A stretch of DNA of 64,000 nt, from the NCBI GenBank assembly GCA_021809425.1, contig JAKBAA010000006.1, positions 1 through 64,000 of the forward strand, written 5' to 3'. The DNA is from Actinomycetes bacterium (GTDB lineage: Bacteria > Actinomycetota > Acidimicrobiia > Acidimicrobiales > Bog-793). Below are positions 12,910 through 19,315 of this stretch, piece after piece (positions within the stretch are counted from its first letter, which is position 1; each line of letters starts with the position of its first letter). The notes beneath the pieces were generated by a model. That model made no database searches and was not told the origin of the DNA. It saw nothing but the letters and a program-made list of their open reading frames with translations. A program made the position numbers and the translations under genes.

Positions 12910-14340
12910 TCAGGGAGCCGAAAGCTCCTGCTGGTAGGCGCTCTGCACCGCCTGGAGCACCCCCGACGGCGTGGTCTGGCCGCCCAGCAGCTTCTGCACC
13001 GCAGGGGTGAGACCCTCCGCGTCGATGGAGCCCGTCGCGTTGGCGATGAAGCCCATCGCGCCGTCGTCGGCCGCCACCACCTTGCCGGCGGCGAGCGTCT
13101 GCGCCGTCACCGTGCCGGGCTTGACCGCCGGGATCGGGAGGCTCGACGGGCCGCCCGGGTTGGAGCCGCCCTCCTTCACGTTGAGCGCCCGAGCTGCCGG
13201 GTTCGTCTCGACCCAGTTCAAGAAGAACGCCGCACAGTTCGCGTGCTTGGCTGCCGCAGGGATGAGGTAGGTCAGCGGTGCCGACATCGCGGCCTGCTTG
13301 CCACCGGCCGTGATGGCCGGGAACAGGAAGAACCCGTACTTCCCCGGGAAGTTGGTGTCGAAGTTGCCCGACTCCCAGTCACCGTCGAAGATGAACACGC
13401 CCTGGCCGTGCTCGAAGCGGCCCATCATGGTGGAGTACGACACCGCATTGGCGTCCGAGTTGAAGTACCCCTTCTTGATCCAGGTGTCGAGGTGCTCGGT
13501 CGCGGCGAGGTTGGCCGGCGTGTTGAAGGTGGCGTGCGGCTGGTCGAAGACCCACTTGTTGATGTTGGCGACCGACCCGTACTGCTTGATGTTGTAGTCC
13601 GCCATGAGGTCCTGCAGGGGGAAGATCAGCCCGCCGTTGCCGGCGCTGTTGAACTGCTCGACGGGGAGCAGGCCCTTGGCCTTCGCCTTGGCGAGGTCGG
13701 CGTCCAACTGCGCCAGGGTCGCCGGCGGCTTGGTCATGCCGATCTTCTTGGCGTAGGCCTTGTTGTAGAACACGCCGGTCATCGAGTAGTTGATCCCCAT
13801 CGCCCACAGCGGGCCGATGCCCTGCGGGCTGCCGCTCGGCGCGACACGCAGCTGGGCGAGGTCCGAGGCGGGGAACTTGCTCCACCCGAACGTCTTGTAG
13901 TAGCCGTCCATGTTCTTGATGAGGTGGTCCTTGACCAGGCCGGAGATCTGCGGCGCCCGCATCAGGTCAGGCGGGTTGGGGCTCGACATCACGAGCGGCG
14001 CGTCCTGGGTGATGACGGCGAAGGGGTCCTCGCGGATCTTCCACGTCACGTTCGGGTACTGCTTCGTGAACAGCTTGGTGAGATCGACGATGTCCGGGAA
14101 GCCGGTCTCGAAATAGCCCTGCATCGTGACCGGCTTGGTGCCGCAGTTCGCGGCGAAGCTCGCAGCGCCACCGGCGGCCTTCGGCCTTGCTGCAGCGTGA
14201 CCGGCCGTGCGGTGGGCGACCCGAGACCCCGACGCGGGGCCGGCCGCGAGTCCAGCGGCGGCGATGACAGCCAGCGTGGACGAGCACGCCGTCACGGTCC
14301 ACCGTCGCCTTGTCGTGCCAACGGATCTCCTCAACTCCAT
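12910..14340 (-). CDS. Extracellular sugar-binding protein of ABC transporter
   Basis: Start at ATG 14340 with AGGAGGA SD; signal sequence; SBP_bac_1-like 'ETGFPDIVDLTKLFTKQYPNVTWKI', 'FIFDGDWESGNF'. Confidence 0.85.
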   Translation of the reverse strand: MELRRSVGTTRRRWTVTACSSTLAVIAAAGLAAGPASGSRVAHRTAGHAAARPKAAGGAASFAANCGTKPVTMQGYFETGFPDIVDLTKLFTKQYPNVTWKIREDPFAVITQDAPLVMSSPNPPDLMRAPQISGLVKDHLIKNMDGYYKTFGWSKFPASDLAQLRVAPSGSPQGIGPLWAMGINYSMTGVFYNKAYAKKIGMTKPPATLAQLDADLAKAKAKGLLPVEQFNSAGNGGLIFPLQDLMADYNIKQYGSVANINKWVFDQPHATFNTPANLAATEHLDTWIKKGYFNSDANAVSYSTMMGRFEHGQGVFIFDGDWESGNFDTNFPGKYGFFLFPAITAGGKQAAMSAPLTYLIPAAAKHANCAAFFLNWVETNPAARALNVKEGGSNPGGPSSLPIPAVKPGTVTAQTLAAGKVVAADDGAMGFIANATGSIDAEGLTPAVQKLLGGQTTPSGVLQAVQSAYQQELSAP

Positions 14341-14444
14341 CCTCCTTTGTTGGAGCCATCGTGGGTGATCGCGGCGATCCGAGGCACGCCGGGAGCGGAC
14401 CAGAAGCCCTCCCCGGTGCCCGGACACCCCCCCATCCCCCATGT

Positions 14445-14460
14445 GCTAAATCGCATTAGC
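14445..14460. promoter_or_regulatory. Putative LacI-family operator GCTAAATCGCATTAGC
   Basis: Imperfect palindrome (GCTAA...TTAGC) with central CG, in the divergent intergenic region between the binding-protein gene and the lacI-type gene. Confidence 0.6.
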
Positions 14461-14552
14461 GGCGGTCTTGATGATGCAGCTTCGACCAGTCGTCGTCAAG
14501 ATGGAGCCCTCACCCGGCCGTCCGGCCGTGGCGGCCGCGTATGCTCACTGCC

Positions 14553-15689
14553 ATGCCGGCACCGCCTTCGAACGGACCCCGCCGGCCGCGCCGTCGCTCT
14601 ACGACCGAGGAGGAGGGCTCCGGCGCCGCAGCGAAGCCGAACCGGCGGACGACCCTTGCCGACGTCGCTCGACGCGCAGGGGTCTCCCAGACGACCGCCT
14701 CGTTCGTCCTGAGCGGGCGCCGAGAGGAGATGCGGATCTCGGCACAGATCGAGGCGAAGGTTCTGGAGGCCGTCGCGGAGACCGGCTACCGCCCGAACGT
14801 CGTCTCCCGCAGCCTGCGCACGGGCTCGTCGCACACGATCGGCTTCGTCTCCGACACCGTCGCCACCACCCCGTTCGCCGGTCACCTCATCTGGGGGGCG
14901 CTCGACGCAGCGCGCGAGCGTGACCGGCTCTTGCTCATCGCAGAGACCGAGGGTGACGCGGAGCTCGAGACGCAGATGATCGAGACGATGCGCGACCGGC
15001 AGGTGGAGGGCATCGTTCTCGCGTCGATGTACACGCGCCGGACGAACGTCCCCGCCGCCCTCCTCGACGGACCCGGCGTGCTGCTCAACATCGTGCCGAC
15101 GAGAGCGTGCGCGGTACCGGTCGTCATCCCCGACGAGGCGGAGGCGGGGCGGACCGCAGCACGCCACCTGCTCGAGGCCGGCTACCGGGAGGGCATCTAC
15201 CTCGTCGGCGTGGGCGTCAACCCGCCGAAGACGCCGAGGGGCGCCGTAGCCGCCTCCGAGCGGCTCCTCGGGATCATCGAGGAGCTGGCCGCCGCCGGCG
15301 TCACACCGGCGGGAGGCGCCTACGTCAAGGACTGGCAACCCAAGGGTGGCTACGAGGCGACGAAGGAGCTTCTCCGACGCCGGCACCAGCCGAAGGCGCT
15401 CATCTGCTTCAACGACCGACTGTCCATGGGGGCGTTCCAGGCGCTGGAGGACGCAGCCCTGATGGTCGCCCGAGACGTATCGGTGATCTCCTTCGACGAC
15501 GAGCCCGTCGCCTCGTGGCTCCGGCCGGCCCTGACGAGCATCGCCCTCCCCCACTACGAGCTCGGTCGTCAGGCCATCGAGCTGCTGCTGGCGCCGGGAA
15601 GCGAGGCGCCGGGCGGCGTGCACCGGGTCCCCATGCCGCTGCGCCTGCGCGAGTCGGTCGGTCGGGTCGAGCGGACGGCGACGGGATAG
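14553..15689 (+). CDS. LacI-family transcriptional regulator
   Basis: HTH 'TTLADVARRAGVSQTTASFVLSGRREEMRISAQIEAKVLEAVAETGYRPN' and a periplasmic-binding-like sensor. ATG 14553 preferred over 14541 because of TATGCT-N7-ATG. Confidence 0.9.
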   Translation: MPAPPSNGPRRPRRRSTTEEEGSGAAAKPNRRTTLADVARRAGVSQTTASFVLSGRREEMRISAQIEAKVLEAVAETGYRPNVVSRSLRTGSSHTIGFVSDTVATTPFAGHLIWGALDAARERDRLLLIAETEGDAELETQMIETMRDRQVEGIVLASMYTRRTNVPAALLDGPGVLLNIVPTRACAVPVVIPDEAEAGRTAARHLLEAGYREGIYLVGVGVNPPKTPRGAVAASERLLGIIEELAAAGVTPAGGAYVKDWQPKGGYEATKELLRRRHQPKALICFNDRLSMGAFQALEDAALMVARDVSVISFDDEPVASWLRPALTSIALPHYELGRQAIELLLAPGSEAPGGVHRVPMPLRLRESVGRVERTATG

Positions 15690-15708
15690 CGAAGGGGCCT
15701 CTCCGAGG

Positions 15709-15793
15709 GGTGGACCCAGTCGCGCTCGTCCTTCGGGTCGCCGTCGCCCAGCGCCCGCTGAACAGGCGTTTTGCTCGGCTGATCGTGAGCCAT
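15709..15793 (-). pseudogene. C-terminal remnant of a DUF5615-type PIN-like toxin gene
   Basis: VQRALGDGDPKDERDWVHP matches LQALLDGDPKDELDWVHWL of the intact copy at 18169-18528; nucleotide similarity over ~55 bp. Confidence 0.6.
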
Positions 15794-15846
15794 CCACCTC
15801 GTCCAAACACGTCTGATGTTTGTCTGACGTCGAGGAGGATGGCGTC

Positions 15847-16308
15847 GTGCCCACCACCGAGCAGTTCACCTTCAGGGACCTGCTTCGCGAGCCGAAGCGG
15901 GTGTCGGAGGCCGTCGATCGCGAGCGCCGACTCCTCATCCACCGCCGCGGTGCCCCCGACCTCGTCGTGACCCGAGCCGACCTGTTCGAGGACGAGCTCG
16001 CAGGCGCCAGCGGCCTCGGCCGTCTGCTCCGCAACCTCCTCGCCCACGTTCCCTCGAGCGAGGTCGGCGAGATCGTGGCCGACGCCCTTCCCTGGACGCG
16101 CTTTCTCAGCGAGGAAGGACGCACCAAGCTCGCCGCCGAGCTCGGCGCAACGCTCGATGCCTGCGCCGAGCTCGAGACCTTCGTCGCCCTCGGTCAGCTC
16201 CTCGCGGAGTGGAAGGCCACCGCGGCGGTGCAAGCCGACCCAGAGCTTCGCGCGCGCCTCGCCACGCCCGTCGAGGCCGTCGACGGCCGTAGCGTCCCTG
16301 CCTCGTGA
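15847..16308 (+). CDS. Phd/YefM-like antitoxin-type protein
   Basis: FTFRDLLREPKRVSEAVDRERRLLIHRRGAPDLVVTRADLFE resembles a Phd/YefM N-terminal fold; GTG start with GAGGAGG SD. Confidence 0.5.
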   Translation: MPTTEQFTFRDLLREPKRVSEAVDRERRLLIHRRGAPDLVVTRADLFEDELAGASGLGRLLRNLLAHVPSSEVGEIVADALPWTRFLSEEGRTKLAAELGATLDACAELETFVALGQLLAEWKATAAVQADPELRARLATPVEAVDGRSVPAS

Positions 16309-16440: not shown

Positions 16441-16931
16441 GTCCTGCGGTGCACAAGGAAGCTCCTCGACGTGATCCACGCCGAGCGACTGGCAACGCCT
16501 CGGCTCGACGGCGAGAACTGGTACGCGAACCTTCTCGTCCTCGACCGGCGCAAGTGCCTCCTGCTCACCCACCCCAGCACCTTGTTCACGGTCTTCGAGC
16601 CCGACGTCCGGGCGGCGGCCCATGCGAGCGACCCCACGACCTCGTGGTCCAACTCGCCGAGCGCGAGCTGCTCCACGAGGCCCTCTCCCTCGACGTCTTC
16701 GGCGAGCTTCGGGCCGAACCACTGTCGCTCGCCAAGACCGCCGACCGCAGGGTGCTGGGGTGCATGAACGACATGGCCATCCACTGCGAAGTAGCCGCCG
16801 CGAGAGCCGGGAGCTTGTCCGCGGACAACGTCCGCGCTCTCAACAACGACTTGCGCCGGAACATCAACAGCGCCCGGGACGATGGGCGTCCGATCGACCT
16901 GGTGGCGGCGCGTACCGTCGCCTCGCCGTGA
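16441..16931 (+). pseudogene. DUF6933-like protein gene interrupted by a frameshift
   Basis: Frame 1: VLRCTRKLLDVIHAERLATPRLDGENWYANLLVLDRRKCLLLTHPSTLFTVFEPDVRAA. After ~16610-16645 the homology continues in another frame: HDLVVQLAERELLHEALSLDVFGELRAEPLSLAKTADRRVLGCMNDMAIHCEVA...LNNDLRRNINSARDDGRPIDLVAARTVA. Confidence 0.6.
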
Positions 16932-17083: not shown

Positions 17084-17116
17084 TTGTGGGAGTTCAACTC
17101 GGTGTCGGAGGGGGGA
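17084..17116. repeat. Distal copy of 33-bp att-like direct repeat (tRNA-Leu 3' end)
   Basis: TTGTGGGAGTTCAACTCGGTGTCGGAGGGGGGA; one mismatch to 19213-19245. Confidence 0.75.
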
Positions 17117-17198
17117 TTGTTCCACCTACGACACGCGCGACAACGCTCGTCTTGGCGCCCCGAACAGGGCGTTCGCGCGCACATCACCGTGCCGCTGG

Positions 17199-17570
17199 TT
17201 AGCGAGCAACGACCCTCCAGCGTTCCGCTATCGCGCGCGCGTCGATGGCGCCGCGTGCGACATCGACGACGAGGTCGAATGCCTCGTCGTCGCGCAGCGC
17301 GACCTCGCAGCCGTTGAGATCGAGGAACACGACGACCGCCAGCCATGCGAGTCGCTTGTTCCCATCGACGAGCGCGTGATTACGGGCGAGCGAGTGGAGG
17401 AGCGCGGCCGCCTTCAGATCGATCGTGGCGTACACGTCCTCGCCAAAGGCGCTTGCCCTCGGTCTCGCCAACGCCGACTCGAGCAGACCCACGTCTCGAA
17501 CCGGGCCGACCCCGAGCACCCGAACCATGCCGAGGAGGTCCTCGAGGTCGAGGTGCTCGGTCTGCCTCAC
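17199..17570 (-). CDS. Fic/Doc-family toxin
   Basis: 'HSLARNHALVDGNKRLAWLAVVVFLDLNG' matches the Fic motif HxFx(D/E)GNxR; 123 aa; 4-bp overlap with the upstream RHH gene. Confidence 0.85.
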   Translation of the reverse strand: MRQTEHLDLEDLLGMVRVLGVGPVRDVGLLESALARPRASAFGEDVYATIDLKAAALLHSLARNHALVDGNKRLAWLAVVVFLDLNGCEVALRDDEAFDLVVDVARGAIDARAIAERWRVVAR

Positions 17571-17773
17571 TCCCGCCCGAGACGCTCGAGCACGTCGCCC
17601 CAGCGCTCGGCAAGTCGCTGCGTGCCCTCGGCGACACGGCGTCGATGGACCATGCGTTCGTAGCGCTCCACGACCGAGCGTCGGATCACCTCTTGGCGGG
17701 AGACCCCTTCGAGCTCGACGAGCCCATCGAGCGCCTCTTCCATCTGGTCATCCGTCCGCACCGTCAGCGCCAC
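17567..17773 (-). CDS. Ribbon-helix-helix (CopG-like) antitoxin
   Basis: MALTVRTDDQMEEALDGLVELEGVSRQEVIRRSVVERYERM: RHH-like; GTG start; pairs with Doc. Confidence 0.8.
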   Translation of the reverse strand: MALTVRTDDQMEEALDGLVELEGVSRQEVIRRSVVERYERMVHRRRVAEGTQRLAERWGDVLERLGRE

Positions 17774-17780
17774 GCAAGAA

Positions 17781-17799
17781 TGATACCACCGTGGTATCA
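17781..17799. promoter_or_regulatory. Perfect inverted repeat TGATACCAC-C-GTGGTATCA, probable autoregulatory operator
   Basis: 9-bp arms, 1-bp centre, 7 bp upstream of the RHH GTG start; overlaps a -10-like TATCAT. Confidence 0.7.
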
Positions 17800-18168
17800 G
17801 CCGCGATCCCTCGCGGTGCTTCGCGCCAGGGCCAACGCCCGATGCTGGATCCTGCGAACCGGGCGGTGTGAGATGACAGCGGCGCCTACACCACCACCAT
17901 GGTGCTCGCCATCGGCCCGCTCCTGCCGGCCGGGCGCCTCGGTGGCTCGGTCGGGCAAACGGACGGGGGATCCCGCCTACTCAACTACCTCGACGGGTCG
18001 TATCCGCTCCCCGCCGGCGAGCCGTCGCGCGGTGCTCGTGGGGCGCGAGCGGCTGCACGGTGGCGACTACCGGGATGGCGAGGCGTCTGAGGGCGGAGCG
18101 AGGCGGAGATTGCAGGGACCTACCGGAAGGCCTTGAGGCGGCGCCGAGGATTGAGGCAAGGCGCGCGC

Positions 18169-18528
18169 TCAGGAGAGCCAGTGGACCCAGTCGAGCTCGT
18201 CCTTGGGATCGCCGTCGAGCAGGGCCTGCAAGGCAGCGACGAGGTTCGCCGGGTAGGCGGCACTCCCCCGGTGGAACCGCCGCGGCGAGGTGAACACGAC
18301 CCCGGCGTGATGCTCGCCTGCCGCAGCCCAGGCACGGACGATCCGGTCGAAGTCCGCCACGTTCTCCGTCACGACCGCCCGCCCCTCCCTCGTCGCAGCG
18401 CGCAGCAGGTCGTCATCGGCGAGGGAGGCGAGCACCGGGTCGCCCGAGGCCGCCACGACGTCGTGGCCAGCGCCACACAGCCGCTCGGCGGCAAGGCGGG
18501 AGTGGTGGACGTCGAGCAGCAGCCTCAC
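18169..18528 (-). CDS. DUF5615-type PIN-like toxin
   Basis: MRLLLDVHHSRLAAERLCGAGHDVVAASGDPVLASLADDDLLRAATREGRAVVTENVADF: PIN-like acidic pattern (LLLD, DDDLL, TENVADF); 4-bp overlap with the upstream gene. Confidence 0.75.
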   Translation of the reverse strand: MRLLLDVHHSRLAAERLCGAGHDVVAASGDPVLASLADDDLLRAATREGRAVVTENVADFDRIVRAWAAAGEHHAGVVFTSPRRFHRGSAAYPANLVAALQALLDGDPKDELDWVHWLS

Positions 18529-18950
18529 CCCGCCAGCAGGTCCTGCTGGCGGCGCCAGAGCGACTCGGCCTCCTCCGCTGCCCGCCGGTTCGCCTGGAGC
18601 TCCGCGTCGATCTCGTCGGTGAACTCGGCGTAGTAGGCGAGCGCCGCCTCCACCTGCTCCCGGCGCAGCCCGAACAGCTCGACGGCCCGCTCGACGCGCT
18701 CAGCCGGCGCCACGTCGCCGCCGACGACACCGCCGATGACCTCCCAGACGTCGGGGCCGCCGACCAGGCAGGCCCGGCGCCCTGCCGGGCCGTCCCGGAA
18801 GCCGACGAGTGGATGGCGCCGCACCCGCAGCCCCTCGTCGATCAGCTCCTCGGCGAGCGCCGAGGTCGAGGTTCCCCGCGTGCCTGCCTCCGCCTTGAGG
18901 CGCTCGGCGATGCTCGCCTCCCGGAACCGGACCGAGATGGGATGCGTCAT
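18525..18950 (-). CDS. Antitoxin-like protein: N-terminal RHH-like region plus DUF433-type region
   Basis: MTHPISVRFREASIAERLKAEAGTRGTSTSALAEELIDEGLRVRRHPLVGFRDGPAGRRACLVGGPDVWEVIGGVVGG...; start ATG 18950. Confidence 0.7.
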   Translation of the reverse strand: MTHPISVRFREASIAERLKAEAGTRGTSTSALAEELIDEGLRVRRHPLVGFRDGPAGRRACLVGGPDVWEVIGGVVGGDVAPAERVERAVELFGLRREQVEAALAYYAEFTDEIDAELQANRRAAEEAESLWRRQQDLLAG

Positions 18951-18965
18951 GACTACAGCGTAGTC
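18951..18965. promoter_or_regulatory. Inverted repeat GACTAC-AGC-GTAGTC abutting the antitoxin start codon
   Basis: 6-bp arms, 3-bp spacer, directly adjacent to the ATG on the minus strand; contains a -10-like TACGCT. Confidence 0.6.
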
Positions 18966-19212
18966 GTAAGGTCGTTCGTGAGGTCGATCCCGTCTCGGGA
19001 GGCGTGCCGGGAGGTCGATCCGGAATCGGGAGCCGATCCGGGAGGCCGATGTGGTCGCGCCATCACGCCTCGCCCCCGCCGAGGAACCTCCCGATCGCAC
19101 CGGCCGCGCACGCAACCCTTCCCAAGCACCACGGCATGGCTTGCGAGCGGTGTCCCTAGCGACGTGAACCCCCACACGCTCCACAGCCGATTGACCAGGT
19201 CTTTCGGCGAGC

Positions 19213-19245
19213 TTGTGGGGGTTCAACTCGGTGTCGGAGGGGGGA
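19213..19245. repeat. tRNA-proximal copy of 33-bp att-like direct repeat
   Basis: TTGTGGGGGTTCAACTCGGTGTCGGAGGGGGGA; overlaps the last 14 nt of tRNA-Leu(GAG). Confidence 0.75.
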
Positions 19246-19315
19246 CTTGAACCCCCACGCCCTTTCGGGCACTAGCCCCTCAAGCTAGCGCGTCTGCCTA
19301 TTCCGCCACTCCGAC
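19232..19315 (-). tRNA. tRNA-Leu(GAG)
   Basis: GTCGGAGTGGCGGAATAGGCAGACGCGCTAGCTTGAGGGGCTAGTGCCCGAAAGGGCGTGGGGGTTCAAGTCCCCCCTCCGACA: 7-bp acceptor, long variable arm, T-arm GTTCAAG, anticodon loop TTGAGGG; CCA not fully encoded. Confidence 0.95.

Follow-up and report, generated by a model that had tools for sequence, protein, structure and literature searches.

The window, by which we mean the whole 64,000-nt stretch of actinobacterial DNA analysed, contains a tRNA-Leu(GAG) gene adjoined by a small islet of about 2.1 kb. The islet is bounded by two copies of a 33-nt direct repeat and carries two toxin-antitoxin (TA) pairs, RHH-Doc and RHH-DUF5615, with no recombinase (Table 1). Self-comparison found the repeat copies 32/33 identical (family D7), bearing out the single mismatch recorded in the initial annotation. 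The tRNA gene, which we take as the attachment gene, was placed at about the same coordinates by ARAGORN and Rfam, and the right repeat copy therefore covers the last 16 nt of the tRNA, not 14 nt as first given.

Table 1. Features at the tRNA-Leu(GAG) locus, in window coordinates
Feature	Position	Strand	Basis or remark
Remnant of a second DUF5615 3′ end	15700..15760	-	86% identical to 18181-18229 over 49 nt (D3)
Weak DUF6247-like ORF, possible antitoxin of an older left element	15820..16308	+	1.1e-3, below Pfam cut-off
DUF6933-like gene, frameshift-broken	16516..16922	+	Homologue in G020 (L089)
Left repeat copy: tRNA tail core 17102-17116 and same arm as right copy, ~17084-17101	17084..17116	-	Read as tandem-element junction
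Arm on islet side of left core: CGCGTGTCGTAGGTGGAACAA (minus strand)	17117..17141	-	Imperfect inverted repeat of core
Doc/Fic toxin, motif HALVDGNKR intact	17199..17570	-	Pfam Fic/Doc 6.1e-13; NCBIfam DOC_P1 5.3e-13
RHH (CopG-like) antitoxin, overlaps doc start	17567..17773	-	Pfam RHH_1
DUF5615 PIN-like toxin	18169..18528	-	Pfam 3.4e-10
DUF5615 partner antitoxin, RHH-like N-terminus by eye	18525..18951	-	Homologous to gene beside G071 DUF5615
Right repeat copy: tRNA tail core 19231-19245 and element arm CGAGTTGAACCCCCACAA, ~19213-19230	19213..19245	-	
tRNA-Leu(GAG), attachment gene; no encoded CCA after 3′ end (reads CACCG)	19230..19315	-	ARAGORN and Rfam

Within each TA pair the genes overlap by a few nucleotides, and the Fic/Doc domain with its H-x-x-x-D-G-N-K-R motif, next to an overlapping antitoxin gene, is typical of a type II TA module. 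The gene content first proposed is confirmed: Doc, its RHH partner and DUF5615 are recognised by Pfam, and the partner of DUF5615, which matches no Pfam or NCBIfam model, resembles, by eye and in tblastx, the antitoxin adjoining DUF5615 in genome G071 (locus L113). The islet pairs share toxin families and gene overlaps with known type II modules (Doc/RHH and DUF433-DUF5615) and are unusual in location alone. Neither a recombinase nor a relaxase was found between the putative attachment (att) sites, either by Pfam annotation of the main ORFs or by comparison with the recombinases of relatives. When the window was searched for recombinases under relaxed conditions, the matches listed were all noise, and a plasmid search for DNA like the islet gave, among the matches listed, short tRNA and doc-like matches alone.

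The repeat identity is composite: 15 nt belong to the tRNA tail (TCCCCCCTCCGACAC, minus strand) and the next 18 nt lie beyond the tRNA core, where both copies share CGAGTTGAACYCCCACAA (minus strand); on the islet side the identity ends 3 nt left of CCCCTCCGACAC. The initial annotation had proposed that a repeat common throughout the genome would count against an att reading. In the 3.5-Mb host genome, exact matches to a 20-mer from the repeat are confined to these two sites, with three other sites at 3 mismatches, and the exact 14-mer CCCCCCTCCGACAC likewise occurs only at the two repeat sites. The stretch separating the TA pairs has a core-like 12/16 match at 18098, which is at the background level of the window scan. 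Parts of the repeat region recur elsewhere: the arm-core stretch 19215-19255 is 95% identical over 41 nt to G071, and arms resembling the one at 17117-17141 are found at L096/L097, L037 and L241.

To the left of the islet lie further decayed gene pieces (Table 1). The homologue of the broken DUF6933-like gene in G020 (L089; 69% DNA identity over 258 nt) adjoins a full-length serine recombinase at the tRNA-Leu(GAG) core. Since the repetition takes in the 18 nt beyond the tRNA core, and since the left flank looks like a decayed element, the left repeat copy is probably an internal junction between tandem elements, the older one having the same arm type. The original reading of the repeats as att remnants is thus kept, with the left copy reassigned as a probable tandem junction. 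The array probably extends left to about 15.7 kb, such that 15.7-17.08 kb would be an older decayed element of the same kind. A window scan for the outer left end of the array, near 15.7 kb and the LacI stop at 15689, detected no core at up to 4 mismatches. The neighbouring pair of genes for an ABC substrate-binding protein and a LacI regulator (12910-15689) is 75-77% identical at the DNA level in G012 and G024; this flank was rejected as a guide to the empty site, since its orthologues in those genomes lie away from tRNA-Leu.

An SBP_bac_5 gene with tRNA-Leu(GAG) after it is a conserved arrangement across much of the family, and the DNA downstream of the tRNA gene varies among the relatives examined, so that the site does hold the alternative content that had been suggested as a check. 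The tRNA tail core, GTCCCCCCTCCGACAC, has extra copies in direct orientation in many genomes. A search of 35 family genomes with the 14-nt core returned tRNA copies and extra copies, several of the latter downstream of the tRNA on the same contig; for G028 the distance to the tRNA is 2.0 kb, for G001 it is 5.3 kb, and two G018 cores are 3.4 kb apart. Many more extra cores were found across 248 genomes of the order, the same-contig pairs listed all being in direct orientation. A reversed-pattern control gave zero matches in both searches. Across many genomes the core of these extra copies is fixed and their arms are unrelated.

Empty and occupied versions of the site were found within one genus, g18. 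The site is uninterrupted in G017 (CACCATGTAGCGGGTTTGCGATCATCGGGCTGG) and is occupied in G028 by a 2.0-kb islet; the 28 nt after the distal core in G028 equal the G017 empty-site sequence except for one substitution and one gap, after which the contig ends. An empty site of the kind first called for therefore exists, in a genus other than that of the host. The distal core at L037 and the last core of L046 are followed by CCA, as expected if the original tRNA end has been displaced. To the left of distal cores, identity to the tRNA extends over a roughly bimodal length, ~3-7 nt or at least 10 nt, with the longer matches reaching GTTCAAGTCC in the T-loop. The window belongs to the short-identity group along with L046, L109, L110 and L116, which have serine recombinases or their remnants; the long-identity group includes L117 and L119, with tyrosine integrase-like ORFs. 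The two groups may reflect elements of serine and of tyrosine recombinases, respectively. These genome comparisons show tRNA-Leu(GAG) to be an integration hot spot, used repeatedly and with tandem junctions.

Other arrangements were seen at the locus. Segments bounded by two whole tRNA-Leu(GAG) genes, or tandem copies of this tRNA ~119 nt apart, are present at L108 (G205), L115 (G150) and L120 (G089), so that a complete tRNA must be part of some elements or duplications. L098 and L099 are 100% identical for 6,297 bp around tRNA-Leu(GAG) in different species-level genomes (G031 and G025), which could be due to recent transfer or to contamination; non-typical repeat-bearing DNA lies nearby. Many MAG contigs of relatives stop no more than a few hundred bases past tRNA-Leu(GAG) on its downstream side, which would be expected where a site varies within populations.

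L038 and L089 each have, at the core, a full serine recombinase with Resolvase, Recombinase and zinc-ribbon domains; that of L041 is of a different subtype. Tyrosine integrases are found at the same site in L048 and L095. A profile prepared from an alignment of four serine recombinases defined family A3, whose members were found in 19 of 198 genomes by alignment search. When positions were compared by hand in the order, 11 of ~23 A3 loci ended exactly at the core and 5 more within 85 nt of it. Among the best 80 A3 relatives from Actinomycetota in the GTDB contig collection, with hosts including Streptomyces, Nocardia, Frankia and Nonomuraea, 53 run, on the opposite strand, into the 3′ part of tRNA-Leu(GAG); no other tRNA is overlapped. 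A subset has its stop codon within the T-loop complement, which gives C-termini such as RVGGGT. Since members of this subfamily end inside tRNA-Leu(GAG) in 53/80 loci, A3-type serine recombinases are likely to integrate much of the traffic here. Over the same loci (L161-L240), the recombinase takes its stop codon from within or near tRNA-Leu(GAG) in 53/80.

A search of the host genome (93% complete) for a cognate recombinase found none, the best match (E 1.6e-9) being of a different subtype. As no recombinase was recognised in the islet and none cognate in the genome, we infer the integrase type for the islet. The window arm, read in frame as GVQLGVGGGT (compare RVGGGT), was considered as a serine recombinase 3′ end; this reading was weakened and demoted to a possibility because the G071 arm follows unrelated genes and is not the end of a recombinase gene.

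Several other small att-bounded segments, in relatives, have TA genes and no more than remnants of a large serine recombinase. In L046 (G042) the tRNA is followed by a C-terminal remnant of a recombinase, by ParE/Phd and by a core; beyond that core come a segment with MazF and a third core, which has CCA. In L110 (G083), 1.3 kb long, VapC accompanies a recombinase remnant; in L109 (G115) a Phd-like antitoxin stands with recombinase remnants; L113 has a recombinase-like remnant and a DUF5615 pair related to that of the window; and L100 (G028) and L241 (G218) each have a PIN toxin. The intermediates with recombinase remnants (L046, L109, L110) belong to relatives, and none is directly ancestral to the window islet. 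By Pfam or by eye, no TA genes were found in the small segments L037, L108 and L114, and the small ORFs of L112 matched no Pfam family.

The commonest Pfam families among 119 ORFs within 2 kb of non-tRNA cores were PIN (8) and Phd/YefM (6), with DUF5615, PemK, ParE, VapB and RHH at 2 each; in the control, 46 ORFs drawn from 20 arbitrary segments, no TA family was among the first 25 of 54 families. Approximate hand counts, with ORFs chosen by a simple GC3-based rule (doc in the window corrected manually), gave ~24/119 TA ORFs near distal cores against 0/46 in the control, with 25 of the 54 control families inspected (Fisher p = 3e-4). By site, 17 of 40 distal ends had TA genes against 0 of 20 control segments (Fisher 5e-4), a count that mixes clear and weak Pfam hits and includes non-independent sites within one genome or genus, making the p values rough. 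As a rough estimate, then, the 2 kb next to distal att copies are enriched in TA genes. These relatives show that elements at tRNA-Leu(GAG) often appear to shrink to little beyond predicted TA genes and putative attachment sites.

The islet is most probably a decayed, integrase-less, CIME-like element in a tandem array, reduced to two TA modules between att sites. It has attL-/attR-like direct repeats at a specific integration site, the repeat is limited to this locus, and recombinase and relaxase are absent from between the att sites. Its lack of any recombinase, relaxase or conjugation genes of its own sets it apart from an ICE or IME. Nor does it have an A3 gene with its 3′ end at the tRNA core, as a large-serine-recombinase element would; the att structure alone is shared. 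Site variability, the G017/G028 pair and the locus-limited repeat all support the original proposal of an integrase-less TA islet at a tRNA 3′ end.

We propose that several element lineages, many with a large serine recombinase ending inside the tRNA, would integrate at the tRNA tail. Each insertion would bring a new tail copy and shift the older copy downstream, leading to a head-to-tail pile-up. Internal deletion would then strip recombinase, relaxase and other cargo, and TA modules near the distal end would tend to survive. Their persistence may be explained by addiction, through the predicted TA activity, with cells that lose a TA pair being poisoned. In this best explanation the newest remnant in the window is that at 17.1-19.2 kb.

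The islet might instead be a currently mobile TA cassette, moved in trans by enzymes of other elements, either serine recombinases or tyrosine integrases, able to recognise the tRNA-Leu(GAG) core. Both att copies of the islet are well preserved, and similarly small TA segments in other families retain both att arms. Arms of the class seen in L046 and L110 also terminate L086 (G018), with VapBC cargo, and L128 (G083), with DUF433/DUF5615 cargo, so that a single class is tied to ParE/Phd, VapBC and DUF433/DUF5615; different TA cargo beside the same att arms, another suggested check, is thus found in other genomes. G018 and G083, genomes of different families, share the VapBC part, a module together with its arm, at 82% identity over 671 bp. 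However, such shared modules could equally be derived from full elements by separate deletions, and the host genome lacks a cognate recombinase, leaving a mobile cassette unlikely. That the second repeat is a chance local duplication of the tRNA tail, with TA genes gathered without site-specific integration, would fit the decayed TA pieces also present left of the repeat and the whole-tRNA duplications at the locus in other genomes (L120), but is strongly disfavoured and very improbable given the recurrence of extra cores with fixed core and unrelated arms in many genomes, the recombinase genes that end at the core, and the empty and occupied sites within one genus.

A bolder reading is doubtful: tRNA-Leu(GAG) in these actinobacteria could be an integron-like platform, at which a dedicated large-serine-recombinase family docking at the tRNA tail captures and shuffles TA cassettes with matching att arms and spreads them between families in trans. 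Chromosomal superintegrons are arrays of small units, many with TA modules. The arrays described here are alike in consisting of small, often TA-bearing units, and differ in that the units are bounded by tRNA-tail cores.

CIMEs are elements that have lost integration and transfer genes and kept their att sites, and tandem arrays form by serial site-specific integration (PMC5704250). The islet likewise is without integration and transfer genes, has att sites, and is in tandem. In contrast to described CIMEs and tandem accretion at tRNA genes, the cargo kept here is TA modules, the segments are 0.7-3 kb, and the recombinases at the site are commonly of the large serine type. Insertion into tRNA genes by serine recombinases has been called rare, and in eight Mycobacterium AICEs related serine recombinases integrate in one tRNA-Leu gene (PMC3218068); judged by its description, that recombinase group is possibly the same as A3 or related to it. 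Whereas those AICEs are full elements, Acidimicrobiaceae and other uncultured actinobacteria have remnants and arrays here, and members of the recombinase family are spread over many Actinomycetota. TA-rich arrays of small att-bounded units at one tRNA in many actinobacterial families appear to be new, no earlier description having been found in the open-access literature searched.

With these results, serine-recombinase integration at tRNA-Leu, reported from the Mycobacterium AICEs (PMC3218068), is extended to a wide range of Actinomycetota and one dedicated tRNA gene. They point to an integration hot spot where mobile elements leave behind tandem TA modules bounded by att sites that are predicted to be still usable. 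The locus would allow one question to be tested, namely whether TA pairs are selected for holding remnants in place or are minimal TA cassettes that move with borrowed recombinases.
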